The notes below the pieces were generated by a model. That model saw only the letters and a program-made list of their open reading frames with translations, made no database searches and was not told the origin of the DNA. From positions 1 through 25,335 of IMG/VR virus record IMGVR_UViG_3300044940_000242: DNA of 25,335 nucleotides, one strand, 5' to 3'. This document shows positions 13,078 to 25,335 of this stretch, in pieces. Source of the stretch: a virus. Each line of letters starts with the position of its first letter. Position 1 is the first letter of the stretch. The position numbers were made by a program, and so were the translations under genes.

Positions 13078-13821
13078 TTATCCTGTAAAATTGTAAACAA
13101 GAGGTTGAAGTTTATATATCATTTCGTCTTCAAGTTCTTTTTTTTCTATTCTTGCATCGTTTAATATTTGTTCACCGTTGAACATAACGCCTCCAACCAG
13201 TTGCATATTGGAGAATTTAGTAATATTTAATCCCCATTGCTCTTTTACAAGAGCTGCAGCATATCTTTGTAACCAACGATCTTTCCATAGATCGGAATAT
13301 TGTTGTTCATCAATGATGTCATATGCCTCAATAATTAACCACCTTCCAGGAGTTAATATTTTTTTGTTAATGTCAATGTATAATTTATTGACATGTCGAT
13401 TATATCTTATAAGAGGTCTTCCAACAAGAATTTCTTGAAGAAATTGCAAATGTTGCATAGTCATATAATAGTTTTGAATATTATATCCAGTTAAATCTGT
13501 AAGATTATTAAGAACAAATTGATATTGAACATTAAAGAAACCAGAACCAGTCATGATGGACGTACTGATATCAAAAATTCTTACTATTCCAAGAAGTCTT
13601 TCTGGAACATTTATATATCCTTGATCTATTTCTTCCTGCGTAAGTTGATGCTTTAAATAAATCAATTGACTACCATCATAATGGTAATCTCTAAAAAATG
13701 AAAGAGCTTCATCTATACGATCTTCTATTTGTTCATCCGATACGTTAATTTGAATGACTGGATGACCAATTTTTCTTAAAATATATTCTTTAAATTCGGC
13801 TCTTGTTGATGGTTGAGACAT
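13078..13821 (-). CDS. 13: Neck protein (gp13-like)
   Basis: gp13 binds the portal and, with gp14, forms the neck that seals the filled head. The protein is 247 aa, shorter than T4 gp13 (309). Typical parts are the N-terminal TRAEFKEYILRKIGHPVI, VSDEQIEDRIDEALSFFRDY helix, INVPERLLGIVRIFDI, the tryptophan-rich DLWKDRWLQRYAAALVKEQWG segment and the final KKELEDEMIYKLQPLVYNF helix. The ATG at 13821 is preceded by AAAAGGG about 10 nt upstream. Its place upstream of gene 14 matches T4, although the relic nuclease and the membrane protein now separate them. Confidence 0.92.
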   Translation of the reverse strand: MSQPSTRAEFKEYILRKIGHPVIQINVSDEQIEDRIDEALSFFRDYHYDGSQLIYLKHQLTQEEIDQGYINVPERLLGIVRIFDISTSIMTGSGFFNVQYQFVLNNLTDLTGYNIQNYYMTMQHLQFLQEILVGRPLIRYNRHVNKLYIDINKKILTPGRWLIIEAYDIIDEQQYSDLWKDRWLQRYAAALVKEQWGLNITKFSNMQLVGGVMFNGEQILNDARIEKKELEDEMIYKLQPLVYNFTG

Positions 13822-13894
13822 ATGTAAAATACCCTTTTATTTTTATTTATTATAGTAAAAATAATTAATGTTTTATCATAATTTTATTATTGAT

Positions 13895-14428
13895 TTATTT
13901 ACTGATAATTTTACCTAATGTATATGATAAGAATAATTTAATGAAAACAAATGGAGGAATCAAGGGAAAGACAAATTTGTAACCTTTTGATATAAGTTCT
14001 TCTTTTGAAACGCCTTTTTTCTGAATGTTATCGTAGTAAAGATTTCCAATTTGTACAATTCCGTGTCCTGCATCTCTTGGAGATTTAACATACCACATCA
14101 AATATTTAAAACGTAAAATATCCCAAAGAAATTGAAATAGATTTCTATTTGATAACATCCACATAAGTGTTAATGAATAGTCTTCACAGTCTCCAAACCA
14201 CTTATCTTCTTTTTCCGAGTAAATAATTCTCCAGTTATCAAACCAACGAACATTATCTTTTCGATAAACAAAATGTGAATTAAGTTTTTTAAGTGCTTCT
14301 TCGATTGTCATCTTTTTGGTTTCCTTTTTAGTTTTTCTAGCAAATAATGTATCAACATGTTCATCCGTTATTCCTCTCATATTTTGAGTTGATAAAATAT
14401 TGGTGACATCCGATGAACCATGATTCAA
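13895..14428 (-). CDS. Transglutaminase-like cysteine peptidase-family protein
   Basis: The core reads MTIEEALKKLNSHFVYR, FDNWRIIYSEKEDKWFGDC, EDYSLTLMWML, then DAGHGIVQIGNLYYDNIQK. The GDCEDYS, GHGIV and LYYDN blocks match the Cys-His-Asp arrangement of bacterial transglutaminase-like cysteine proteinases, of which small phage versions exist in T4-like genomes. The hydrophobic C-terminus (FPLIPPFVFIKLFLSYTLG) may be a membrane anchor. The listed start is a TTG at 14428 without a clear ribosome-binding site; the ATG of MTIEEALKK (about residue 41) is another possible start. The frame stays open to about 14458, and a plausible N-terminal piece lies in another frame upstream, so the 5' end may be frameshifted. 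The substrate is unknown. Confidence 0.75.
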   Translation of the reverse strand: MNHGSSDVTNILSTQNMRGITDEHVDTLFARKTKKETKKMTIEEALKKLNSHFVYRKDNVRWFDNWRIIYSEKEDKWFGDCEDYSLTLMWMLSNRNLFQFLWDILRFKYLMWYVKSPRDAGHGIVQIGNLYYDNIQKKGVSKEELISKGYKFVFPLIPPFVFIKLFLSYTLGKIISK

Positions 14429-14766
14429 AAATCCAACGTTTTCTTTCTTTAATTTGTTGATGCTTTGGCATTAAAGAAATGATAGATTTAAATTCTATAG
14501 GAATATTACTAAGTGGAATTCCATTTTGTATTGTTATCAACCTAACCTAATTGAAAACATTCTTAAAAGAAAATCTAATTTATTTATTTAACTTGTTTTT
14601 CGTTATTCATTTCTTTTTTTGTTTGGATATAAATTCAAACACGATCATTTATAATCAATCTTATGTTTTCTGATTATTAATGTTTTAAAGGTTTATTAAA
14701 TCAGATATGATTACAAATGTATTTTTGTTGTAATTGATTTAATAAATCATATATAATATCAAATAA
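14429..14766. other. Gap with a possible displaced N-terminal fragment and a stem-loop
   Basis: A short minus-strand frame from a TTG at 14540 reads ITIQNGIPLSNIPIEFKSII, then SLMPKHQQIKE, and ends inside the transglutaminase-like gene in a different frame. A one-base shift in the A-rich stretch near 14445 would join the two. Beyond 14545 the sequence has stops in all frames I read. A large AT-rich stem-loop occupies 14692-14746, just past the end of fibre cassette copy 1. Confidence 0.4.
14692..14746. terminator. Large AT-rich stem-loop downstream of the fibre cassettes
   Basis: TTTATTAAATCA at 14692-14703 pairs perfectly with TGATTTAATAAA at 14735-14746, and an inner stem ATTACAA (14710-14716) pairs with TTGTAAT (14728-14734), leaving an 11-nt loop and a 6-nt one-sided bulge. 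It lies 20 nt past the last stop of cassette copy 1, where a minus-strand terminator would be expected. A C/G-poor stem and weak T-run make function uncertain. Confidence 0.4.
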
Positions 14767-14991
14767 TTAAGGCGTTTGCCAAGTTGGTAATTCTGCTAGC
14801 AGAGATTTAAGATCACATGATAGCAGATCATCAAGTTCCATTATAACGATTGCCACTTTCCACACACTATCTCTCCATTCGACAAAAATTCGTGCCTCAG
14901 TAACCCATTCAGGTAAGGTCGAGGCAACATAGCGGACCAGGTGCTCGGCCAGGCGCTCTTCGGCGGTTCGAATGTTGAGTGTAAAGGTCAT
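14767..14991 (-). CDS. Fibre companion B, copy 1, with internal deletion (74 aa)
   Basis: It begins MTFTLNIRTAEERLAEHLV and ends LLSCDLKSLLAELPTWQTP. Compared with the 105-aa copy at 16263-16580 it lacks 31 residues in frame (the EELAAARKQIADAVEAHV to HLA helix) and has many AT-leaning substitutions (T-L-P-E-W for T-V-P-A-W, and so on). Residues 22-50 still match (YVAST, WVTEARIFVEWRDSVWK). The ATG overlaps the stop of companion A copy 1 (ATGA). Because the helical start is gone and the gene upstream is broken, this is probably a nonfunctional remnant, though the frame is open. The family is common next to fibre genes in alphaproteobacterial prophages and may assist fibre assembly; that role is inferred. 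Confidence 0.65.
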   Translation of the reverse strand: MTFTLNIRTAEERLAEHLVRYVASTLPEWVTEARIFVEWRDSVWKVAIVIMELDDLLSCDLKSLLAELPTWQTP

Positions 14992-15139
14992 TCGAATACC
15001 TCGGCAGGCTTTTGGGATGCGGTGATGGCGATTTGGTCATAGAAGGCGATGCCATCGACGTGCTGACCGTCGATGGCGACTTGATCGTCGTCTCCGGATG
15101 GCCGGGCAGGCCGCGCTGCGGGGTCATGGTGAACATCAT
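14988..15139 (-). pseudogene. Fibre companion A, copy 1, frameshifted and shortened
   Basis: The ATG at 15139 follows a GGAG site just after the fibre stop and reads MMFTMTPQRGLPGHPETTI, matching the start of copy 2 (MILTLIPQRGLPGQPETTI). Just after this, near 15080-15088, the reading frame shifts: in the next frame the DNA codes VAIDGQHVDGIAFYDQIAI, then TASQKPAEVFE, which matches the middle and the exact end of copy 2 (TVNGIAYDL, then PAARKPVEVLE). About 55 residues of the middle are also missing. The product from the first frame would be an unrelated tail. Still G+C-rich, unlike the neighbouring phage DNA. Confidence 0.75.
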
Positions 15140-15150
15140 GGAAAGTCTCC

Positions 15151-16129
15151 TCAAAACCAGCGACCGATGGCGGTGAGCGAAACCTCGCACGTCGTTGCGG
15201 TTTGCGCAATCGCCGCCGTCACGGCGTAGGTGGCCGACGTTGTGCCGGGCACGTTGGCGCTGACGGCGCCGAAGGCCATCAGGTTGCGAGCGACGGGAAC
15301 AAACACCGGGATGTCCGTAAACTCAGCGGGATATGTCCAGGTTTGCGCAGCCGAACGGAACCCGCCTGTGAAGGTGGTGTCGATGGCCAGGCTGGTGCTG
15401 ACGGCATGGGTGCAGATCTGAGCACCTTCCGCAAACCGCAAATACTCGCCGTTAGAGTTCGACCCGCGCTCGATCACCGCATCTGTCGGCACCCCTCCCG
15501 ATTGCGAAACGGCGCCAAGAATGTAGTTTTGTGAATATAACTGCCGCCAAGGCATCCAACTGCTTGGCGGCACCCCGACGGAATCGCGTACCCAGACAAC
15601 TACACGATCCGAACTGAAAGGCCGCACAATGGCCATTTGAAGTATGCTGTTTGCTGCCCGCCACCAGTTTTGCAAGATGACAAATGTTGAGTCCGTGCCC
15701 GGCGGCGGAGTTCCTGCGTTCGTGTTATTGAACCGATACCAGCCGATCGGAATGTTGAATGCGTCAATGTCCTCGCCGGGTACTGCGGGCGGAACGGCGC
15801 TCATATTCCCGATGCCAAAATCACACACTTTCAACAATCGACTGGCTGTGCTGTCTGTTGTAGACTGAGTTACCGCTGTGCCAGTAATGGTACCAGTGAC
15901 TTGCATTCCATTATTTGTAATACGTACTCTTTCAGAACTATTTGTTGATATACCAATAATATCATATATCATTTCCGATATCAATGCTCCAACTAAAATT
16001 TGGTGATGATGCTGTACCTGAAGAGCCACCAAATATGACTCCAATAAAAGAGTTTGCAGTAATAGTATTTGCTGATATTATGTTACGATTATCATCAATA
16101 ATTGTAGAGTCTTGTATTTTAATCGGCAC
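15151..16129 (-). pseudogene. Chimeric tail fibre, copy 1, frameshifted in the shaft
   Basis: The GTG at 16129, with AAGGAG upstream, starts VPIKIQDSTIIDDNRNIISA as in copy 2. Relative to copy 2 there is a 21-nt deletion and a 7-nt insertion (ATATGAT, a local tandem duplication) near 15965-15990. The frame therefore stops at a TGA at 15962-15964 after 55 residues. The rest, from IGISTNSSERVRITNNGMQ to the SLTAIGRWF end, is open in the next frame. The tip keeps the same conserved blocks as copy 2 (SRLLKV, NWWRAANSI, PPSSW, QLYSQN, ERGSNSNGEYLRF, GRWF). Unless ribosomes shift or restart (an ATG lies at the start of IYDIIGIS), no full fibre is made. Confidence 0.8.
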
Positions 16130-16229
16130 CTTTATACTCCTTTATACATAATAATAATTGATTGATATTTTTATAAATTATTAAATACATTTTATTCTTC
16201 AATATATTTTTTATTACTTACATATAAAT

Positions 16230-16237
16230 TATTTATA
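16230..16237 (-). promoter_or_regulatory. T4-type late promoter box before fibre copy 1
   Basis: An exact TATAAATA on the minus strand lies about 100 nt upstream of the copy 1 GTG, in the leader that is duplicated between the two cassettes. The same box is at 18008-18015 before copy 2. Its conservation across the duplication, while nearby bases differ, supports function. Confidence 0.6.
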
Positions 16238-16262
16238 AAAAAAATTACAGTATATTAAATAA

Positions 16263-16580
16263 TTAAGGCATTTGCCAAGTTGGTAATTCTGCTAGCAGAG
16301 ATTTAAGATCACATGATAGCAGCAGATCATCACGTTCCATTGCCGCGATTGCCGCCTGCCATACGGCGTCACGCCACTCAATGAAGACCCGCGCCTCGGC
16401 GGCCCATGCCGGTACGGTAGAGGCAACATAGCTGGCCAGGTGCGCGGCCGAGCTGTAGCCAAGCGCATGAGCATGCGCTTCAACGTGAGCCTCGACAGCA
16501 TCGGCAATCTGTTTCCGGGCAGCGGCCAGCTCTTCGGCCCGGCGTTCTTCTGCGGTTCGGATTTTAAGCATGAAGGTCAT
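16263..16580 (-). CDS. Fibre companion B, copy 2 (105 aa), prophage-type assembly/accessory protein
   Basis: The ATG overlaps the stop of companion A (ATGA), so translation is coupled. The protein is an amphipathic helix-rich polypeptide: MTFMLKIRTAEERRAEELA, AARKQIADAVEAHVEAHAH, ALGYSSAAHLASYVAST, VPAWAAEARVFIEWRDAVW, ending ELPTWQMP. This is the pattern of small proteins found directly downstream of tail-fibre genes in alphaproteobacterial prophages (ALGY-S-AAHLA-Y, W-A-EA-F-W-RDAVW). A chaperone role for the fibre tip is inferred from position. The first three quarters are G+C-rich; the last 25 codons are AT-rich like the phage, suggesting partial amelioration or a junction. Confidence 0.8.
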   Translation of the reverse strand: MTFMLKIRTAEERRAEELAAARKQIADAVEAHVEAHAHALGYSSAAHLASYVASTVPAWAAEARVFIEWRDAVWQAAIAAMERDDLLLSCDLKSLLAELPTWQMP

Positions 16581-16897
16581 TCGAGTACCTCAACAGGTTT
16601 ACGGGCAGCAGGGATGAAGACGGGACCGTCGAAGGCAATGACGGTCCAGGGACTGTCGGGCTGATCGAACGCGGCGGTATCATCGAGCCGGACGATCACC
16701 GAGGCGTGCAGCACGTCGTCTTCGCGGCTGATCGGGCCGGCAAACGGGTGCTCGCCCTCGGGGATGCCTTCGCCGCCATCTGGAATTATGCTGAGATCGT
16801 AGGCGATACCGTTCACGGTCAGCACGTCGCCTGTGACGTGAATTGTCGTTTCCGGTTGACCTGGCAAGCCGCGTTGTGGGATAAGGGTCAAAATCAT
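16577..16897 (-). CDS. Fibre companion A, copy 2 (106 aa)
   Basis: A GAGGAG site 6 nt upstream decides the ATG at 16897, 9 nt after the fibre stop; the longer open frame reaching 17185 is antisense-like overlap with the fibre gene. The protein reads MILTLIPQRGLPGQPETTI, HVTGDVLTVNGIAYDLSII, PDGGEGIPEGEHPF, then VIVRLDDTAAFDQPDSPW and ends PAARKPVEVLE. The form is a small all-beta protein with a VDG-type core. Similar proteins sit after fibre genes in alphaproteobacterial (Rhodobacter-like) prophages, as recalled; no activity is known. It is intact, unlike copy 1. Confidence 0.82.
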   Translation of the reverse strand: MILTLIPQRGLPGQPETTIHVTGDVLTVNGIAYDLSIIPDGGEGIPEGEHPFAGPISREDDVLHASVIVRLDDTAAFDQPDSPWTVIAFDGPVFIPAARKPVEVLE

Positions 16898-16908
16898 GAC
16901 GTATCTCC

Positions 16909-17913
16909 TCAAAACCAGCGACCGATGGCGGTAAGCGAAATCTCGCGTGTCGCGGCCGATTGTGATGACACCGCCGTCACGGCGTAGGTGGCCGACGTTG
17001 TGCCGGGCACGTTGGCGCTGACGGCGCCGAAGGCCGTCAGGTTGCGAGCGACGGGAACAACAACCGGAATACCCGTGAACGCAGCTGGATACGTCCAGGT
17101 TTGCTCGGCCGAACGGAACCCGCCCATGAAACCAGTGAAGCCTGGGGTGTTGATGGCCAAGCTGACGCTGACAGCATGGGTGCAAATCTGCGTGCCGTCT
17201 GCAAACCGCACATACTCGCCATTGGAGTTCGACCCGCGTTCAATCAGCGCTCCAGTCGGCACCCCGCCTGATTGCGAAACGGCGCCAAGAATGTCGTTTT
17301 GTGAATACAACTGACGCCATGACAACCAGCTGCTTGGCGGGTTGCCGACAGAATTGCGCACATAGATCGTGATGCGATCCGGGCTGAAAAGCCGCATAAA
17401 GGCCATCTGAAATATCGAGTTTGCCGCCCGCCACCAGTTTTGCAAGATGACAAATGTTGAGCCCGTATTCGGCGGCAGCGTTCCTGCGTTCGTGTTATTG
17501 AAGTAATACCAGCCGCTCGGAATGTTGAATGCGTCAATGTCCTCGCCGGGTACTGCGGGTGGAACAGCACCCATATTCCCGATGCCAAAATCACGCACTT
17601 TCAACAATCGACTGGCTGTGCTGTCTGTTGTAGACTGTGTTACCGCTGTGCCAGTAATGGTACCAGTGACTTGCATTCCATTATTTGTAATACGTACTCT
17701 TTCAGAACTATTTGTTGATATACCAATAATATCATTTCCGATTCGATAAATACCAGTATCTGTATCACCGCTCCAACTAAAACTTGGTGATGATGCTGTA
17801 CCTGAAGAGCCACCAAATACGACTCCAGTAAAAGAGTTTGCAGTAATAGTATTTGCTGATATTATGTTACGATTATCATCAATAATTGTCGAGCCTTGTA
17901 TTTTAATCGGCAC
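16909..17913 (-). CDS. Chimeric tail fibre, copy 2 (334 aa), intact
   Basis: The GTG at 17913 has a perfect AAGGAG 8 nt upstream and aligns with copy 1. Residues 1-90 (PIKIQGSTIIDDNRNIISA, TITANSFTGVVFGG, SWSGDTDTGIYRIGND, SSERVRITNNGMQVTGTI) are AT-rich phage-type shaft. From about residue 95 (TQSTTDSTASRLLKVRDFG) to the end the DNA is G+C-rich: this part has pyocin-knob-like features (GWYYFNNTN, SGSTFVILQNWWRAANSIFQM, NPPSSWLSWRQLYSQN) followed by ERGSNSNGEYVRFADGTQI and a C-terminal beta tip ending SLTAIGRWF. These blocks are typical of prophage fibres of alphaproteobacteria. The tip probably binds the host surface. Followed closely by two companion genes of the same base composition. Confidence 0.88.
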   Translation of the reverse strand: MPIKIQGSTIIDDNRNIISANTITANSFTGVVFGGSSGTASSPSFSWSGDTDTGIYRIGNDIIGISTNSSERVRITNNGMQVTGTITGTAVTQSTTDSTASRLLKVRDFGIGNMGAVPPAVPGEDIDAFNIPSGWYYFNNTNAGTLPPNTGSTFVILQNWWRAANSIFQMAFMRLFSPDRITIYVRNSVGNPPSSWLSWRQLYSQNDILGAVSQSGGVPTGALIERGSNSNGEYVRFADGTQICTHAVSVSLAINTPGFTGFMGGFRSAEQTWTYPAAFTGIPVVVPVARNLTAFGAVSANVPGTTSATYAVTAVSSQSAATREISLTAIGRWF

Positions 17914-18007
17914 CTTTATACTCCTTTATACATAATAATTGATATTTTTATAAATTATTAAATACATTTTATTCTTTAGTATGTTTTTTTATTACTTACA
18001 TATAAAT

Positions 18008-18015
18008 TATTTATA
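18008..18015 (-). promoter_or_regulatory. T4-type late promoter box before fibre copy 2
   Basis: An exact TATAAATA on the minus strand lies about 95 nt upstream of the copy 2 GTG, in the AT-rich gap 18039-17914 side that precedes the intact cassette. It corresponds to the box at 16230-16237 in copy 1. Confidence 0.6.
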
Positions 18016-18171
18016 TAAAAATTACAGTATATCAAATATATGAATAAATTTAAAATTATTGATACTTTTTTATAATAAATTGTTAAACACAATAATTTAA
18101 AAATCAATAAATTGACAAATATTTTAAATTCATTTTGGTATAATTGAATTGTCATTCAAAAAATAAAAAAT

Positions 18172-18930
18172 CTAAATTCGTTGAATATCTTCTTCGATAC
18201 AATTAACTCCATATTGTATCTCTACTATACGCAACTCTTCATTAGTATTATTTATAAGTTGATGCCAAACACCAACTGGAATTTTTATTTCATCATGTTC
18301 TCTAAGAATAGATGTATTAAGTTTGTTTTCGTCGTATCCATGTTTTATTGTTGCTATTCCTTTAGATACAATCCAATATTCATTTCTTAAGCGATGTCTT
18401 TGAAGACTAAGATGTTTATTAGGTTCAACAACAAGTTCTTTTACTTTCATTGATGGACCATCAGAATGAAGTACTCTGTAATATCCCCATTTTTTTAATG
18501 TTTTAGGATTTTTCCATTCTGTAAGTATTTTACTGCTTGAATTTATTTTATGTTCACCTCCAACACCAAAAACAAAACGAACTCGAGGATCTGAAATATC
18601 CATTTCGGGAATATTATTTTTTGTTCTGTCTCCTCCATTTACAAATATTATTTCAGAATCAGAATATGTTTCTAGACAATATTTAATTGCATTTCTTGCA
18701 GACCCATCGCTATCATCGAATATAATAACAGAATCAACAACTTCTAAAGCTTTTATGATAGCAATTCTTTCATTTATATTCATAAATGGTCGACCTTTTT
18801 TTCGAGTCAACCATTCATCACTATTTACACCAACTACAAGAATATCACCTAATTTTTTTGCATGTTCAAAATATGCAATATGACCACTGTGTAAAGGATC
18901 ATAACCTCCAGTAGCAAGAACTATTTTCAT
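18172..18930 (-). CDS. Cytidylyltransferase-like / cupin fusion protein
   Basis: Residues 1-125 form a nucleotidyltransferase of the HxGH type: MKIVLATGGYDPLHSGHIA, with GYDPLHSGH as the nucleotide site, then VVGVNSDEWLTRKKGRPFM and NERIAIIKALEVVD, as in HldE/RfaE-type sugar-1-phosphate adenylyltransferases. Residues about 145-252 form a cupin resembling the sugar-phosphate isomerase domain: VEPNKHLSLQRHRLRNEYW and VGVWHQLINNTNEEL give the His-rich metal-binding pattern. The fusion suggests activation and isomerisation of a sugar phosphate. AAAGGAA precedes the ATG. It is the last gene (promoter-distal) of the carbohydrate cluster. Substrate unknown. Confidence 0.85.
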   Translation of the reverse strand: MKIVLATGGYDPLHSGHIAYFEHAKKLGDILVVGVNSDEWLTRKKGRPFMNINERIAIIKALEVVDSVIIFDDSDGSARNAIKYCLETYSDSEIIFVNGGDRTKNNIPEMDISDPRVRFVFGVGGEHKINSSSKILTEWKNPKTLKKWGYYRVLHSDGPSMKVKELVVEPNKHLSLQRHRLRNEYWIVSKGIATIKHGYDENKLNTSILREHDEIKIPVGVWHQLINNTNEELRIVEIQYGVNCIEEDIQRI

Positions 18931-18958
18931 ATCTTTTTATTCCTTTCTTTAATGTAAA

Positions 18959-19609
18959 TCAAAGTCTTTCTCCTTCAGTATCAAAAAAGAACATATGCCA
19001 AAGCCTGCAATCATGTAAATCACTTCCAAAATACTCTGAAGCTGCATGAATTAAATGACCATCAAATATGACAAGTCTATTAAATATATTTCCAAAAACA
19101 TCGACGACTTCATATGGTGTTCGATCAACAAATGTTTTTTGATTGAAACATTTCATTATATCTGGATGACTTGAATGATGTATTTTTGTCTTTTTATGTC
19201 TAAAAGTTGATGTTCCACACGACGGAGGAGCATCTGGAGTAAGATAAATCATTGCAGCCCACATTTGATCATCACAATGATATACGAGTTTTTCTCCAGC
19301 ATAGTTATGCTGAAAACGACCATTCATTCCATGAGATTCCCAATTTGTGATTTTTGCTCCAATGATTTCTTCAAATGCTTCTTTTACACCAGGAAAAAAA
19401 TGTTGAGTTCTAGTTCTTCTTCCTATATAACCAGGATCATCAAAGTATTCTTGTTTTAAAGCGTATTCTCGAACTGCATATGGATCTTCGTAAAAATTAT
19501 CAACAATAAAAGCTCTCTTTGAAAAGATATATTTTGGATTTACTTTCAGTCTTTCTTCAAGTGGTTTATCCTCATTTATTTTAGGTTTATACCATTTTTC
19601 AATATCCAT
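18959..19609 (-). CDS. 2OG-Fe(II)-type oxygenase (DUF6445-like)
   Basis: The 216-aa protein carries the double-stranded beta-helix iron pattern: H111-x-D113 (YHCDDQMWAAMIYLTPD), H188 (VIFDGHLIHAASEYFG) and R202 (CRLWHMFFFD), plus an acidic N-terminal half (RAFIVDNFYEDPYAVREYA). The DQMWAAMIYLTPDAPPS then GTSTFRHKKT arrangement resembles DUF6445-type putative oxygenases found in T4-like phages. The likely cofactors are Fe(II) and 2-oxoglutarate; the target (sugar, amino acid or protein) is unknown. It starts 1 nt after the stop of the GT2 gene (TAATATGG), so it is translationally coupled to it. Ends GERL with TGA. Confidence 0.82.
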   Translation of the reverse strand: MDIEKWYKPKINEDKPLEERLKVNPKYIFSKRAFIVDNFYEDPYAVREYALKQEYFDDPGYIGRRTRTQHFFPGVKEAFEEIIGAKITNWESHGMNGRFQHNYAGEKLVYHCDDQMWAAMIYLTPDAPPSCGTSTFRHKKTKIHHSSHPDIMKCFNQKTFVDRTPYEVVDVFGNIFNRLVIFDGHLIHAASEYFGSDLHDCRLWHMFFFDTEGERL

Positions 19610-19610
19610 A

Positions 19611-20396
19611 TTAGAACCCCGTGTATTTTGATCTTACAAAATTAAGATCATATGTTGTTGTTCCTATATGTATTTCTTCATTTTCAAATGGAGTACTTCT
19701 TGGTTGCATATATCTCCAACCAGGCCCCCATTTACGAGTAAGATACTCTATATTTAATTTGTTTGCTTTTATTAAAAGATCTGTTAAATTTTTATCACTT
19801 TTGACAGTTTGTGAACCGCTGTCATAATAATTTTTGCTATCTTCTTTACCATGAAAATAGCTGTGTTTTGTACCGACTATTTTATGAATAGGTCTATGTA
19901 CAAATCGCATGATATAATCTGCATCTTCACAATATGCTGGATAAGTATTTTCATCAAAAAGACCAAACATTTGTACAATATTTTCTCTTATTAAGAAGAG
20001 ATCCCAAGCACCAATTCCAAAATCACCAGGATTTGGATGTATCATACCAACAGTAGGACTTTCTTCTACTATTGTTACCATTTCTTCAAGAAGACCAGGA
20101 CCAAATGCAACATCATCATTTGCTATGATCCAATATTCAGCATTCATGTAACACTTTATGATCAGATTCCATGCGCCCGCACAACCGATGTTTGCTGGCA
20201 TATGTACTACTTTAATCTTGTCAATATATTTATGCGTTATTTTAGATAATCTATCAAGTTCTTCATCAATTTCACCTCTTCCGTTATTATTGATGATCAC
20301 AAAATTTTCTACTGGATAATCTACACTCATTACGAGTCTTGTTACCCAATATGGATTTGTTACTACAGGTGCACCTATTACTGGTATTTTCTTCAT
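19611..20396 (-). CDS. GT2-family glycosyltransferase
   Basis: The protein of 261 residues has the GT-A fold order: N-terminal PVIGAPVVTNPYWVTRLV, a sugar-nucleotide segment VIINNNGRGEIDEE, HMPANIGCAGAWNLII, the acidic metal motif ANDDVAFGPG and a later EDADYIMRFV block that can supply the catalytic base. These are the usual GT2 landmarks. The ATG directly follows the TAA of the two-methyltransferase gene, so the genes are coupled. It probably transfers a sugar from a nucleotide donor to an acceptor near the fibre or envelope; donor and acceptor are not decided by the sequence. Confidence 0.88.
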   Translation of the reverse strand: MKKIPVIGAPVVTNPYWVTRLVMSVDYPVENFVIINNNGRGEIDEELDRLSKITHKYIDKIKVVHMPANIGCAGAWNLIIKCYMNAEYWIIANDDVAFGPGLLEEMVTIVEESPTVGMIHPNPGDFGIGAWDLFLIRENIVQMFGLFDENTYPAYCEDADYIMRFVHRPIHKIVGTKHSYFHGKEDSKNYYDSGSQTVKSDKNLTDLLIKANKLNIEYLTRKWGPGWRYMQPRSTPFENEEIHIGTTTYDLNFVRSKYTGF

Positions 20397-22214
20397 TTAT
20401 TTCACTCCTAACATGAATTTTTCTGCGTTTTTTGTTCCTTTATAATCTTTTATTTTAGATATGTCAAATAAATCAGAATGTACAAACCAATCTTCATATG
20501 GTCTGTTATCATCCGGTGATATATCAGATGCAAATAGAACATATCCAAACGATTGTAAATATTTACGAGCTTTTTCTCTGTATTCACTCGTTGGATCTGC
20601 GTAGTGATCATGTTCAAAAGTAATTGCTCTAAAACGATATTTTTCAAATGGTATTGAAAGAAGAACTTTAAATGATGTGCTTGGAGGATCACAATCTATT
20701 TGAAGGTAATCAATAACGTTTTGAAACCCATATGTTTCAAATAAAGCAGAATAATTTGTTGAAGTAGCATCTTTTAATATACAGAGATGTTTTCTTTGTT
20801 CATTATGTGCTTTAACAAATTCTTCATTTATATCTAATGAAATACCATTCCAATCAAATTCTTTTTCAAGTAAATATGTATTATTTCCATAAATTGGATC
20901 TCCAGATCCAATTTCTACATAGGTGCCATTTCTTTTACCACCAGAAACAACTAAAGCAAAAAGATCTTGATATGCTTCAGAATAATTTTGTTGAATATTT
21001 TCTAGACCATCAAATTTATATACAAAATCATCATATTTTTGTTTTGTATATTTAATTAAATATTGAGAACTAAATGCATTCAATTTTACTAAATTATCAT
21101 AGACAATTTTTCTTAATTTATCATCAATATCATAATTGACATATAAATCTAAAAACATATTTTTTGAATCTTCACAAAGACCACACCACCATGCAGTATA
21201 TGCTTTCTGAAAAAGAAGACCATATTTACCTGGATAATTAAGTTTTGTTCTTAAAGGTTTCATATTTTCAAAATCAGAAACTTCAAGTCCAATAGATGCA
21301 ATTAGATATGAATCAAACCATCTTCCGTCAGAGTTTGTATCATTTTCATAGAAAATACTTAATAAGTAATAACCTTCTGGCCTTTTTGGTTGAACGGCAA
21401 TTGCGTGCTGAAGCAAGCCCTTTACAGTAAACTTTCTTGTTCCTTGTTTTTCAAAGCACATTGCTGCACGAATAAGACATTCATATTTGAGTAAATCATC
21501 ATCTGTTCTTTCTGCTGTTCTTATGTAAAAAGAAACTGCAGATGCAGTTTGCCCTATTTCATCATATTCTAGAGCAAGTGCAAAATTTTTTTCTGGATTA
21601 TTAGGATCAAGAACGAAATCTTTTAATAAAGAATCTAAGTTATTGAATTCAGTTTTAAATTCATATTCATTTTTTAGATTTAACCATTCTTTTCTATTTT
21701 TTTCTAATTCTTTATATGTTAGTTCACTCTGTATATTAAGTGGAACCTGAAAACCTCTCTTAATTAAAGATACACCTTCATCCACATCTATGGTCATCAT
21801 TTCTAAATCTATTCTTTCACGTCTTAAATTAACAAAGACCTTCCAACATTCACCATTCCAATCGCCACCATTCCATTGTGGAGTTTGTCTTTCTTCTGAA
21901 ATTGGATTAGTATCATGACAAATAATATATCCATTTGGATTAAGTACATTCAGAGAATTTATTATATCTTTATATACTTGTTCATAAGTATGTAAACCAT
22001 CTATGAAAATTAGATCAAACTTTTCTTTATTTTGTGCAAAGAATTCATCAGAAGTCATCGAAATGATATTTGGTAATTGCGAATTTGGATCTACACCAAC
22101 TTTGTATTCGCAATTAACTTTTTCAAAATTAACACCATTATCGACACCAATTTCAAGATAACTTTTTGCATTTATTTTCTTTGCAATCGCATTAATAATA
22201 TCAGTCCTGTTCAT
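20397..22214 (-). CDS. Two-methyltransferase fusion with a helical-repeat linker (605 aa)
   Basis: Residues 1-105 form a class I SAM-dependent methyltransferase of the MT24 type: LEIGVDNGVNFEKV (SAM loop), KVGVDPNSQ, FDLIFIDGLHTYEQV, NPNGYIICHD. Residues about 195-400 are helical with TPR-like spacing (ALEYDEIGQTASAVSFYI, LIRAAMCFEKQGTRKF, YLLSIFYEND). Residues about 415-600 are an FkbM-type methyltransferase: SEAYQDLFALVVSGGKRNG, YVEIGSGDPIYGNNTY, WNGISLDINEEFV, DYLQIDCDPPS, ITFEHDHYADP. So one protein carries two methyl-transfer active sites, the first for a small molecule or sugar, the second probably O-methylating a sugar or lipid. AAAGGG precedes the ATG, and a TATAAATA box lies 187 nt upstream. 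Confidence 0.88.
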   Translation of the reverse strand: MNRTDIINAIAKKINAKSYLEIGVDNGVNFEKVNCEYKVGVDPNSQLPNIISMTSDEFFAQNKEKFDLIFIDGLHTYEQVYKDIINSLNVLNPNGYIICHDTNPISEERQTPQWNGGDWNGECWKVFVNLRRERIDLEMMTIDVDEGVSLIKRGFQVPLNIQSELTYKELEKNRKEWLNLKNEYEFKTEFNNLDSLLKDFVLDPNNPEKNFALALEYDEIGQTASAVSFYIRTAERTDDDLLKYECLIRAAMCFEKQGTRKFTVKGLLQHAIAVQPKRPEGYYLLSIFYENDTNSDGRWFDSYLIASIGLEVSDFENMKPLRTKLNYPGKYGLLFQKAYTAWWCGLCEDSKNMFLDLYVNYDIDDKLRKIVYDNLVKLNAFSSQYLIKYTKQKYDDFVYKFDGLENIQQNYSEAYQDLFALVVSGGKRNGTYVEIGSGDPIYGNNTYLLEKEFDWNGISLDINEEFVKAHNEQRKHLCILKDATSTNYSALFETYGFQNVIDYLQIDCDPPSTSFKVLLSIPFEKYRFRAITFEHDHYADPTSEYREKARKYLQSFGYVLFASDISPDDNRPYEDWFVHSDLFDISKIKDYKGTKNAEKFMLGVK

Positions 22215-22476
22215 TTCAATCCCTTTAATAATTATAAAAACATGTTTAATTTAATAACACTAATAAAAAATGAAAATTTTAAATTCTAAAAAACTTAAAT
22301 ATATTATTTTCTCTTTAATAAAAGAGCAATTTTCTTCTATTTTAAGTTTTTTTTCATAGAATGTCGTAATTTTTTTAATGAATTTTTTCTATATTAAAGT
22401 TATTTATATCTTATAGACACATCAATTTCATTCGTTCCTTTTTGTTATTAAATTAAGGTTTTTAGATGTAAATATT
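22215..22476. other. Noncoding gap with nested inverted repeats
   Basis: No frame reaches 30 codons. An outer pair AAACTTAAA (22291-22299) and TTTAAGTTT (22341-22349) encloses CTCTTT AATA AAAGAG (22311-22326), a perfect 6-bp hairpin. It separates the GT17/propeller pair from the rest of the cluster and is the largest nongene space in the cluster. No clear U-run follows the hairpin on the minus strand. Confidence 0.45.
22401..22408 (-). promoter_or_regulatory. T4-type late promoter box in the gap before the methyltransferase gene
   Basis: An exact TATAAATA on the minus strand lies in the 262-nt noncoding gap 22215-22476. The nearest downstream start is at 22214, giving a leader near 180 nt. 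A nested AT-rich inverted repeat (CTCTTT with AAAGAG at 22311-22326, and AACTTAAA with TTTAAGTT around it) lies between, so a terminator for the GT17 gene and a promoter for the next block may coexist here. Confidence 0.5.
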
Positions 22477-23295
22477 TTACTCTTGAAATAAAAATTTTCT
22501 TATATTTTCAATTTCAAAAACTTCTTTTGGAAGTTTTGAAACATCATATATTTGTAAAATATGATCATGTCGACCCAATAAATCTACACTATTTTCTTTT
22601 GGATGATAATTTTCTAGAACTTTTATCTCTTTCCAATGAGCACATGATTCTTCTTTTATCTTGTTTTTTTCTTTTCCACCCATCCATGAAAAATGCCAAC
22701 CTGCATCTTCTATAATACCATTATCAACTGCGAATATGTCAGGAAAAATTAAATTATTCAAATTAAATGCATAAGATTCTCGTATTTCTGAAGGCGTATA
22801 CTTTTCTAAATGATGTTTCATACACATAAATGGTGCGCGCCATTCTATTGGATTACCATATTGATCATGAACACGATATCTCGCAGAACTTGAAAGATAA
22901 ACAAGAGGTACTCTTAAAATTGATTCTTTATTATTTCTTACTATTGTTTCATAATATTTTATATATTTAGGATTTATAATCTCATCGCAATCACTAAAAA
23001 ATGCTACATCATCTGAATTAATAAAATTTACTGCAGCATCTCTTTGCATTCTTTCTCTGACCCAAGGATTTTTTTCTTCATCATAGCTCGGCATGTAGAC
23101 ATGTACTAATTGAATTTTTTCTTTTGATATTTTTAGTTTATCTATAACATTTTTAGCAGTAAATTCTTTTTTATCACCTCGGTGTGTATGACTACCTTCA
23201 GTAATAATAAATCTATCGACGTGATCATAAAGAAGTTTTATACGTAATTCTAAAATTTCTTTTTCATTGAAATAAGGAAAACAATCAATTATCAT
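22477..23295 (-). CDS. GT17-type glycosyltransferase
   Basis: The 272-aa protein begins MIIDCFPYFNEKEILELRI, VDRFIITEGSHTHRG, and has WVRERMQRDAAVNFI, the DxD-type FFSDCDEIINPKY segment, APFMCMKHHLEKY and AGWHFSWMGGKEKNKIKEE. The D-x-F-x-FNE-x-E-LE-R opening and GWH-F-W-GG block are typical of glycosyltransferase family 17, whose animal members add bisecting GlcNAc; bacterial and phage relatives act on unknown acceptors. The start lies inside the end of the propeller gene (11-nt overlap), so both are made together. The catalytic-looking acidic residues are present. Confidence 0.85.
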   Translation of the reverse strand: MIIDCFPYFNEKEILELRIKLLYDHVDRFIITEGSHTHRGDKKEFTAKNVIDKLKISKEKIQLVHVYMPSYDEEKNPWVRERMQRDAAVNFINSDDVAFFSDCDEIINPKYIKYYETIVRNNKESILRVPLVYLSSSARYRVHDQYGNPIEWRAPFMCMKHHLEKYTPSEIRESYAFNLNNLIFPDIFAVDNGIIEDAGWHFSWMGGKEKNKIKEESCAHWKEIKVLENYHPKENSVDLLGRHDHILQIYDVSKLPKEVFEIENIRKFLFQE

Positions 23296-24328
23296 TTATG
23301 AAATCCTTCAATTTTTCTATTGATAATTTAACAACATAAGCAGCATTATCTTGAAATCCAAAAGTAATCAGAACATCATCATTTTTATAACACATCCCGA
23401 CTACAAACTCAACATGACCATTCATCATAGAAAAATCCTTCGTAAACTTGACTATATTCCAATTTCTATCCCATACAACAAATCTATGTCTATAAACTGC
23501 ATCTTTTCTTCCGACAACAGATCTAAAAAGATCAACCTCGTGTGTTAATGCAATATAATGATCTTTACCAAAAGGAATCACCTGTGAACCGCCGCGTAGA
23601 TCATTTGGTATATAGATATAATTTCCAAGATGTATGGTATAAGAATTTTGCATTATAGGATCTACAACTACAACCTCTGTTGGATTTGACCATTTTATAT
23701 ATGTGTAATCTTTATCAATTATAGGCATCCAATTTTTTTCACAATATGAATTTTTATCTTTTGGAGGAGGAATTCTAAAACGAGAAACTTCTGTAACATC
23801 GTTCTCCTTAACAACTATTTCTGATAATTCCATTCTTCCTTGTCCGTTTGTTGTAGTATCTCTTCGAACACCAGTTATGTATAACTTATTATCCCAAAAT
23901 ACTAATCTGGCGTCTTCTAAACCTACAAAATCCCATAAAGGTTCATATGTATCAAATTTGCTTGTATCAATCTTATTAAGACGAACAATATTTAAGTCAT
24001 CATCAAGTTCTCCATACCAATTCCATGTTCTTAAATGCAAATCGTTTTCTGGATGAAGATAAGTAAGAGGGCCCCATGGATGTTGAAAAGTCTTTTTTTC
24101 TGAATGATAAAAAGTATAATTTACATGACGTATATTGACGATAATTTTTCCATTTAAGTTAAAAATAGAGGGGTTCATCAAACCCGTTCCATTTGTATTT
24201 AAACTTGGAATTATTAATGGCTTTATTTTTCCGCCATTTTCTATAACATATTTTGAAAAAGATTCATTATTTTCGTAAAGATATTGATTTTCTATTTCAA
24301 AATATCCCTTTTTTAATTCTGTAATCAT
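23285..24328 (-). CDS. Five-bladed propeller, glycosidase-like protein
   Basis: The 347 residues contain repeated blade motifs: MNPSIFNLNGKIIVNIRHV, VGLEDARLVFWDNKLYITG, VRRDTTTNGQGRMELSEI, CEKNWMPIIDKDYTYIKWS, NPTEVVVVD, DLRGGSQVIPFGKDHYIAL and VLITFGFQDNAAYVVKL. This is the layout of five-bladed glycoside hydrolase/phosphorylase-like proteins (GH43/GH130 clan style); the NP-S, LEDARL and E-NWMP blocks supply the acidic pocket. The true reaction (hydrolase, phosphorylase or glycosyltransferase-like) cannot be read from sequence. AAAGGAT and a TATAAATA box 58 nt upstream mark it as the first gene of the cluster. It overlaps the next gene by 11 nt. Confidence 0.8.
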   Translation of the reverse strand: MITELKKGYFEIENQYLYENNESFSKYVIENGGKIKPLIIPSLNTNGTGLMNPSIFNLNGKIIVNIRHVNYTFYHSEKKTFQHPWGPLTYLHPENDLHLRTWNWYGELDDDLNIVRLNKIDTSKFDTYEPLWDFVGLEDARLVFWDNKLYITGVRRDTTTNGQGRMELSEIVVKENDVTEVSRFRIPPPKDKNSYCEKNWMPIIDKDYTYIKWSNPTEVVVVDPIMQNSYTIHLGNYIYIPNDLRGGSQVIPFGKDHYIALTHEVDLFRSVVGRKDAVYRHRFVVWDRNWNIVKFTKDFSMMNGHVEFVVGMCYKNDDVLITFGFQDNAAYVVKLSIEKLKDFINDN

Positions 24329-24416: not shown

Positions 24417-25335
24417 TTAATAATCTTTATTTTTTATTGCATCAATATCTTTATGTAATTCATTTATTTTTTCTTTCAATTCTTTAACTGCTTGAATAAC
24501 AATTGCAGTCAAAGGTGTATAAGAAACTGTTTTTAGACCTGCATTATTTGTTTTAACAAGTTCTGGCATATTTTTTTCAAGCTCTTGTGCTATAATACCA
24601 TAACTTTTTGTTTTGCTGTCTTTCCAATTAAAACTATATACCATTATTTTATCTAAAATATCAAAACTATTATCTATTTTATTTAAATTTTCTTTGAATC
24701 TCAAATCTGATAATGAATCAAAATTTGTTGCTGAAAGATCGCCTGTAAATGGATTGAAAAATAATTTTGTTGTAGAAACTTTTGCAATTTGATTAGATCC
24801 AGATGAAGCTATAAAAACTGGAAAATGTAAATCACTAGTTGTTGTATCATCTATTGCATTAATTTGAGTAGAGGGTCCTGTTGCACCTTGAATTCCTTGA
24901 ATACCTTGTCGTCCTTGAATTCCTTGAATGCCTTGTGATCCAGTTGTTCCTTGAGATCCAGTGATTCCCTGAATTCCTTGAATGCCCTGTCGTCCTTGAA
25001 TTCCTTGAATACCCTGTGATCCAGTTGTTCCTTGAGCTCCAGTTGTTCCTTGATCTCCAGTGATCCCCTGAATTCCTTGAATGCCCTGTGATCCAGTGAT
25101 TCCCTGAATTCCTTGAATGCCTTGTCGTCCTTGAATTCCTTGAATGCCCTGTGATCCAGTTATTCCCTGAATTCCTTGAATGCCCTGTGATCCAGTTGTT
25201 CCTTGAGATCCAGTGATCCCCTGAATTCCTTGAATGCCCTGTGATCCAGTGATTCCCTGAATTCCTTGAATGCCTTGTCGTCCTTGAATTCCTTGAATGC
25301 CCTGTGATCCAGTTATTCCCTGAATTCCTTGAATG
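24417..25335 (-). CDS. Collagen-like tail fibre with C-terminal S74 chaperone (5' end outside window)
   Basis: The minus-strand frame is open from the right edge to the TAA at 24417, with no start codon inside. Roughly 50 Gly-x-y triplets (mostly GIQ, GIT, GSQ, GRQ) come first, then GATGPSTQINAIDDTTTS, a beta-rich stretch (FFNPFTGDLSATNF) and the S74 intramolecular chaperone from SLSDLRFKENLNK through YGIIAQELEKNMPELV to the final coiled coil (AVKELKEKINELHKDIDAI). The Ser of SDLRFK, followed by R and K, matches the autocleavage site of endosialidase-type chaperones, which trimerise a fibre and are then released. The N-terminal virion-attachment part is not visible. Confidence 0.9.
   Translation of the reverse strand, partial: IQGIQGITGSQGIQGIQGRQGIQGIQGITGSQGIQGIQGITGSQGTTGSQGIQGIQGITGSQGIQGIQGRQGIQGIQGITGSQGIQGIQGITGDQGTTGAQGTTGSQGIQGIQGRQGIQGIQGITGSQGTTGSQGIQGIQGRQGIQGIQGATGPSTQINAIDDTTTSDLHFPVFIASSGSNQIAKVSTTKLFFNPFTGDLSATNFDSLSDLRFKENLNKIDNSFDILDKIMVYSFNWKDSKTKSYGIIAQELEKNMPELVKTNNAGLKTVSYTPLTAIVIQAVKELKEKINELHKDIDAIKNKDY
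24885..25335. repeat. Tandem collagen-coding DNA repeat with 153-bp higher-order unit
   Basis: Units of 9 bases (one Gly-x-y triplet) recur to the window edge. Over this there is a longer unit: the segment 25056-25182 recurs at 25209-25335 with only a few differences, an offset of 153 bp (17 triplets). It is a length-variable coding repeat, not a CRISPR array, since there are no unique spacers and the frame is maintained throughout. Confidence 0.85.

Follow-up and report, generated by a model that had tools for sequence, protein, structure and literature searches.

Introduction

Fibre swapping sets the host range of phages, and the moving part is usually taken to be the fibre alone or a fibre plus chaperone. 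Recombination among the fibre tips of phages is free. A small gene directly after the fibre gene is found in several described systems (T4 gp37/gp38, Mu S/U [Tfa], the lambda gpK-type Caudo_TAP, and Phage_tail_APC). In 2023, a fibre with its cognate downstream chaperone was reported as a 'host recognition module' common to unrelated phages (Alteromonas phages A5, V22, and P24; PMC10579305). This module comprises about ten genes and its chaperone has DUF4376. A DUF4376 protein of phage V22, gp27, is a proven fibre chaperone, without which the V22 fibre does not become active (PMC7289586).

Here, we analyze a fibre locus on the 25,335-base linear IMG/VR record IMGVR_UViG_3300044940_000242 (the whole record is referred to as the window), where a chimeric fibre gene is followed by two small genes, companion A and companion B. 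The locus is present as an intact unit (unit 2) and a degraded unit (unit 1). As in the Alteromonas phages, a fibre and its downstream partner are shared by unrelated phages, and DUF4376 occupies the position of the third gene in several loci that carry companion A. However, the set in the window is limited to the fibre tip, A, and the greater part of B, the tip family differs, B has another C-terminal domain, and no companion A is described for the published module. The companions resemble the small genes of the T4, Mu, and lambda systems in position, but A is an extra gene between fibre and B, unlike in the T4 gp37/gp38 and Mu S/U pairs. Some third genes of A-bearing loci match Phage_tail_APC, whereas B from the window reached the threshold for none of the DUF4376, Caudo_TAP, and Phage_tail_APC models of Pfam. 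A preceding reading of the DNA from its letters alone (the sequence-only reading) knew of no named system for such a unit. This no longer holds, as a fibre-plus-chaperone module is published, though without this tip or companion A.

The window is a real and well-delimited case of a known process, the exchange of host-recognition modules between unrelated phages. What is new is a near-obligate unnamed partner (A), a third gene with a conserved start that tracks the tip, breakpoints that stand out against the AT-rich DNA of the recipient, and a duplicated slot of which one copy has decayed. Taken as a whole, the anatomy, homology, linkage, mosaic divergence, and empty site, all of which are seen directly, are best explained by a history which we consider likely: tip, A, and most of B were swapped into a fibre slot of a T4-like phage, the unit was duplicated, alleles were exchanged, and one copy decayed.

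Anatomy of the two units

The window carries the backbone of the T4 superfamily (terminase, portal, sheath, tube, and neck gene cluster). Its structural cluster is encoded on the minus strand, with portal, terminase, sheath stabiliser, head closure, and neck genes recognized by PHROG matches. In the T4-like DNA that surrounds the fibre locus, the guanine-plus-cytosine (GC) content is 0.29, compared to about 0.58 in the GC-rich blocks. Along the window, GC rises from 0.20-0.33 to 0.58-0.63 in two tandem blocks, which correspond to two adjacent units with the same gene order on the minus strand, as had been seen in the sequence-only reading. Two-breakpoint likelihood segmentation places the GC-rich stretches at 17674-16318 (GC 0.59) and 15904-14846 (GC 0.57), with 0.23-0.24 outside. 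Among 80 T4-like relatives, no interval of 400 nucleotides (nt) exceeds a GC content of 0.54.

Unit 2 (16263-18037, minus strand, as are all features of both units) is upstream in transcription and consists of leader, chimeric fibre, companion A, and companion B, all three genes being open. The AT-rich leader (17914-18037) starts at ATTTGATAT (18037) and contains a late-promoter-like TATAAATA at 18015 and a ribosome-binding site, AAAGGAGTATAAAG, ahead of the GTG start codon at 17913. TATAAATA is the T4 late promoter sequence; nine such sites are present, all of them on the coding strand, with one in the leader of each unit (18015 and 16237). The fibre (16909-17913; 334 amino acids [aa]) has an AT-rich N-terminal part (IIDDNRNI) that is common to other T4-like phages, a stem repeat (NNGMQVTGTITGTAVTQSTTDSTASRLLKV) within which the left GC breakpoint is found (17674), and a GC-rich tip (16909-17674). 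Companion A (16577-16897; 106 aa) and companion B (16263-16580; 105 aa) follow. B has an N-terminal TAEE anchor motif and a helical domain, and the right GC breakpoint is within this gene at about 16318.

Codon composition agrees with these borders. The GC content at third codon positions (GC3) is 0.67 for the tip, 0.68 for companion A, and 0.63 for most of companion B, compared to 0.11-0.19 for sheath, portal, neck, and terminase. It is phage-like in the first ~80 codons of the fibre (0.18) and again low in the last codons of B (0.22), and therefore the foreign DNA begins within the fibre and stops within B. The earlier statement that the units as such have a sharply raised GC content thus applies to tip, A, and most of B, but not to the leader, the N-terminal third of the fibre, and the 3' end of B (last ~20 codons), which are AT-rich. 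The AT-rich recipient shows the transferred stretch almost base by base.

Unit 1 (14764-16260) extends from a hybrid junction, ATTTAATAT, at 16260 to ATTTGATAT at 14764 and is degraded. Its leader (16130-16260, with TATAAATA at 16237) and the leader of unit 2 share about 96% identity. The fibre (15151-16129) can be read for ~55 codons (N-terminal piece at about 15962-16129) before the frame shifts, with a 21-nt deletion and a 7-nt ATGATAT duplication at about 15965-15990; the tip piece (15151-15966) is open and 84% identical to unit 2. From companion A, a remnant is left (14988-15139) which lacks about 160 nt and is out of frame. Companion B (14767-14991) is shortened to 74 aa (105 in unit 2) by an in-frame internal deletion and turns AT-rich at an earlier point than B of unit 2. 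The array is thus one working-type cassette and one remnant rather than two three-gene cassettes, which is at odds with the sequence-only reading of a chimeric fibre and two companions in each unit.

The tip matches a tail fibre family (PHROG 2712, E 3e-41). With a profile of four tips, its C-terminal domain proved homologous to that of the F2-pyocin side fibre (PDB 25ve, E 6.6e-12), a match limited to the last ~150 residues; unlike the window fibre, this protein belongs to a phage-tail-like bacteriocin. With the full fibre as query, the relatives retrieved were from marine phages and matched the N-terminal part only. T4-like relatives of 39% GC encode, upstream, a fibre end whose tip is of this general type (L030:42-314), and companion A was not found there.

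Linkage of the tip with companion A

In all 61 loci with companion A (48 clusters at 90%), the tip is encoded directly upstream; this count includes locus L124, the tip of which was missed by the linkage-count rule and seen in the locus scan. Conversely, A is the next gene in 74 of 77 tip loci spread over unrelated phages, a proportion that holds for this tip class only, the tip profile having been built from tips with A. The same linked genes occur in phages that are otherwise unrelated (the window phage, L011, Rhizobium phage RHph_X2_26, DMS3, F10, KPP25, L126, and L127). DMS3 (Casadabanvirus, genes 49-51), F10, and KPP25 have the tip class of the window, A, and a third gene with the anchor motif. 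They differ from the window in being Mu-like or other Pseudomonas phages of 62-64% GC, in the C-terminal domain of the third gene, and in having no duplication.

The genus Casadabanvirus, with its near-constant fibre N-terminus, provides an internal comparison. A close DMS3-type tip is present in 19 records, and a close A is present in exactly these 19. Phages D3112, JBD30, and JBD93 have another C-terminal fibre part and are devoid of A; for JBD30, this part is a sugar-binding-like foot (PMC11445458). Their third gene retains the C-terminal domain (RRQAYRTESDPLRLEAEFDA...) but the N-terminal motif of DMS3 is absent. The right-hand exchange boundary in Casadabanvirus is inside the third gene, as in the window. 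The proposal that the companions travel with their tip is thus borne out.

Composition-mismatched transfers of the set are not unique to the window. In L127, tip, A, and B have a GC content of 0.63 within a phage of 0.46. In a separate phage, L126 (3198-4662; 0.61 vs. 0.45), an AT-rich fibre start leads into a GC-rich stretch that comprises the tip and one half of A, and B is AT-rich again, which places the right breakpoint inside A.

Companion A, companion B, and the third gene

Residues 1-103 of companion A (P0002), practically the whole protein, match PHROG 2398 (E 1.5e-17), a family with no match in a control search of 14 well-known genomes. A is predicted to be all-beta (mean predicted local distance difference test score 91.7). 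A fold search retrieved its own viral family only, without a credible solved match. One of these viral matches is a named structural protein, from Pseudomonas phage YH30, and the deposited annotation of KPP25 gives the products of its A and tip genes as structural proteins. Our guess, for which there is modest support, is that A may be a tip-bound or tip-stabilising protein. For PHROG 2398, which is widespread, the tie to one tip class provides a hypothesis on the function of a common phage gene.

Searches of the trio against Pfam and NCBIfam gave nothing above threshold, and solved structures queried with A or B yielded no credible match. For companion B (P0003), the fold search returned viral uncharacterised proteins and generic helical matches only, none of them a credible match to a solved structure. 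The B family was rejected as a marker of the set, as most of its matches in other phages (L013-L028) follow fibres without A. What recurs is the start of the third gene after A: an IDxSxxxTAE-type N-terminal motif is present in 47 of 53 loci, compared to 22 of 955 control windows (strict pattern), and three of the six loci failing the strict pattern have a variant by eye. After the motif, the C-terminal domains vary (DUF4376, E 3.9e-26; Phage_tail_APC, 1.5e-21; B-type helical; unnamed). As DUF4376 occurs in this third-gene slot, as in V22 gp27, we infer by analogy that B may be a tail-fibre maturation chaperone. The start of the third gene follows the tip and its end does not, which provides a testable rule as to which partner a transplanted tip needs.

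Source of the cassette

The most similar DNA was found on L011 (IMGVR_UViG_3300044995_000108), a viral contig of 43.6 kilobases (kb) and 64% GC, where a collagen-like fibre has this tip at its end and is followed by A (90% aa identity) and B. Between unit 2 and L011, DNA sequence identity is 83.7% in a stretch of 595 nt, which runs from the end of the tip through A into B and includes most of the latter, and 76% in a 453-nt stretch of the tip; the last tip subdomain of L011 is unrelated to that of the window. In L173 (69% GC), 79% aa identity extends over the whole tip, including the last subdomain, and A is next. In Rhizobium phage RHph_X2_26, A follows the tip and B follows A. A genome scan with A resulted in 16 bacterial loci, mostly from Rhizobiales and Roseobacter-type (Roseovarius-type) genomes, with one from Pseudomonas; the tip is directly upstream of A in all 16, and B is present in four. 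These comparisons support, as had been suspected, that tip and both companions came from GC-rich phages or prophages that are largely alphaproteobacterial. The trio occurs together elsewhere, and the companions have matches outside the T4-like phages, the two points on which the sequence-only reading had staked this origin.

The variable slot and the probable host

Both units are located in a variable slot (13822-18171, minus strand) between a cytidylyltransferase-like gene (18172-18930) and a neck gene (13078-13821). In 25 of the 51 T4-like loci where the former gene was found, it abuts the neck gene (gap of 67-134 nt); these include the closest relative, L029 (84% neck identity). In other T4-like loci, the same slot holds 0.7-5.4 kb. 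The slot is thus a variable site that is empty in the nearest relative. In freshwater relatives, it is occupied by a protein of 1718 aa (L033:2750-7906).

The tail sheath is most similar to that of Sinorhizobium phages phiM12/phiM7/phiN3 (47%), followed by Pelagibacter phages and Caulobacter phage Cr30. The nearest named relatives of the window by sheath are therefore T4-superfamily phages of alphaproteobacteria (phiM12, Cr30, and Pelagibacter phage HTVC008M, 42%-47% identity, a comparison that covers the sheath), and the host of the window phage is thus probably an alphaproteobacterium.

History of the two units and alternative explanations

The presence of ATTTGATAT at the outer left (18037) and outer right (14764) ends, with the hybrid ATTTAATAT at the internal junction, indicates a tandem duplication between short repeats which included the leader. 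No paper on the tandem duplication of tail fibres was found in the literature. Divergence between the units is uneven: leader, stem, and the 3' end of B differ at 20 of 460 sites (~4%) but the GC-rich parts at 165 of 843 (~20%; p 6e-16). Differences in the tip are concentrated at third codon positions (40/166 vs. 38/333 at first and second positions, p 4e-4), whereas the stem has no such excess (4/93 vs. 10/187; third positions of stem vs. tip, p 2e-5). This pattern points to tips that diverged mostly while functional and to ends that diverged recently. A 91-nt patch within the tip is 98% identical between the units. Over the 100 nt with which the GC-rich part of B ends, 25 GC-to-AT changes from unit 2 to unit 1 are opposed by five in the other direction (p 3e-4), indicating that the foreign stretch ends earlier in unit 1. 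Separate tip alleles thus look to have been exchanged within the duplicated slot. When the two tips were compared with L011, a runs test gave no significant sign of mosaicism (z -1.28), so the argument for exchange rests on the uneven divergence and the breakpoints.

The sequence-only reading had assumed a capture followed by duplication together with the promoter leader. The duplication of the leader is upheld by the ATTTGATAT ends and the hybrid junction; a simple duplication of the locus as it stands is not. One capture and one tandem duplication, followed by ordinary divergence and in-place decay of one copy, would explain the shared order and leader, the matching ends, and also that identity is slightly higher between the two tips (81%) than between either of them and L011 (75%-76%). 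It does not account for the contrast between ends and middle, for third-position differences like those of alleles that diverged while functional, for the 98% identical patch, or for right breakpoints that are not the same in both units; we regard this simple history as already disfavoured and unlikely. The open tip frame in unit 1, behind a start that is frameshifted by a 7-nt tandem repeat, and the mosaic identity with its near-identical patch might instead reflect a variation system, with unit 1 as a silent tip store from which gene conversion supplies the active unit 2, or with slippage at the ATGATAT repeat as a switch. We consider such a system very unlikely, given that A and B of unit 1 are damaged too, that a 21-nt deletion goes with the repeat, that the runs test gave no significant result, and that the window is a single genome of its kind for comparison. 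Phase variation by the 7-nt repeat, in particular, was considered and found weakly supported.

Misassembly of a T4-like and a GC-rich phage, with the GC-rich blocks as chimaeras, has to be weighed because the locus is known from a single metagenomic contig, a second copy of which was not found in the viral collection, although the searches may not cover near-identical records. Both ends are, however, joined in frame in two non-identical copies, each with the T4-type leader; the three genes of unit 2 stay open although four junctions are crossed; the sequence is not the same as that of any GC-rich relative found; and L126 and L127 have comparable GC-discordant sets. A chimaera is thus very improbable. 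A question of another kind is whether the tip alone matters, A and B being passengers that were downstream of it in the donor. Free recombination of fibre tips would be compatible with this, as would functions of A and B that are putative and a fold of A that lacks an informative solved match. Against it stand the 74 of 77 tip loci of unrelated phages in which A follows, and Casadabanvirus, where A comes and goes exactly with the tip, as does the N-terminal motif of the third gene, while the neighbours stay. We consider it unlikely that the companions are mere passengers.

Several points weigh against the swap of tip, A, and most of B as the preferred reading, and against a fixed set. Part of the input to the hidden Markov models behind the linkage counts came from set-carrying loci, and the loci themselves came out of searches for A or the tip. 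B-type third genes follow A in only 14 of 48 clusters, so the full trio is not obligate, and B is without a Pfam match above threshold and without a solved relative. No identical donor was found (best 84% DNA identity). The arrangement is known from one contig only: an independent assembly was not found, and a search of viral contigs with the leader DNA pattern gave no match and thus no second contig of the locus.

A proposed scheme for the exchange

The swap with subsequent duplication can be laid out as follows, with the transfer route, the order of events, and all functions being what we infer. A T4-superfamily phage, from the group that infects alphaproteobacteria, would have had, in the variable slot beside the neck gene, a fibre gene preceded by an AT-rich leader of its own and a T4-type late promoter. 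Recombination with GC-rich phages or prophages may then have replaced the receptor-binding tip plus the following A and most of B, with a left crossover in a stem repeat used by both phage kinds and a right crossover inside B. The whole unit would have been tandemly duplicated via the short ATTTGATAT homology, and the GC-rich middles swapped for different alleles, after the duplication or before. The downstream copy (unit 1) would have decayed afterwards. The tip presumably binds the host surface, B may act as a maturation chaperone whose N-terminal motif recognises the type of tip or A, and A may be a small beta protein that is needed with such tips and is perhaps attached to them.

A more general proposal, which we see as evenly poised between right and wrong, is that a single receptor-binding cassette, co-adapted and near-obligate, comprises the tip, A, and the N-terminal motif with which the third gene starts, and that this cassette moves among phages of every tail type and pyocin-like elements. 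The C-terminal domain of the third gene would be exchanged independently, and the motif would serve as a chaperone docking signal for the tip/A type.

Neighbouring genes

The degraded unit 1 is adjoined by a gene (13895-14428, minus strand) for a peptidase-like protein of 177 aa with a weak match to PHROG 12671; a relative of this protein is encoded in one of 80 T4-like loci (L073, 52%). Between the fibres and the neck genes, the region 18172-24328 (minus strand) codes for a cytidylyltransferase/sugar isomerase, a glycosyltransferase, a methyltransferase, and DUF6445 proteins. A second fibre of another type (24417-25334, minus strand), with collagen-like GIQ repeats and a C-terminal Peptidase_S74 chaperone domain, is cut by the contig end. 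In one relative, the terminase gene appears to be split and to contain intein-like sequence (L048:12171-14407; CVKGNTQI...).

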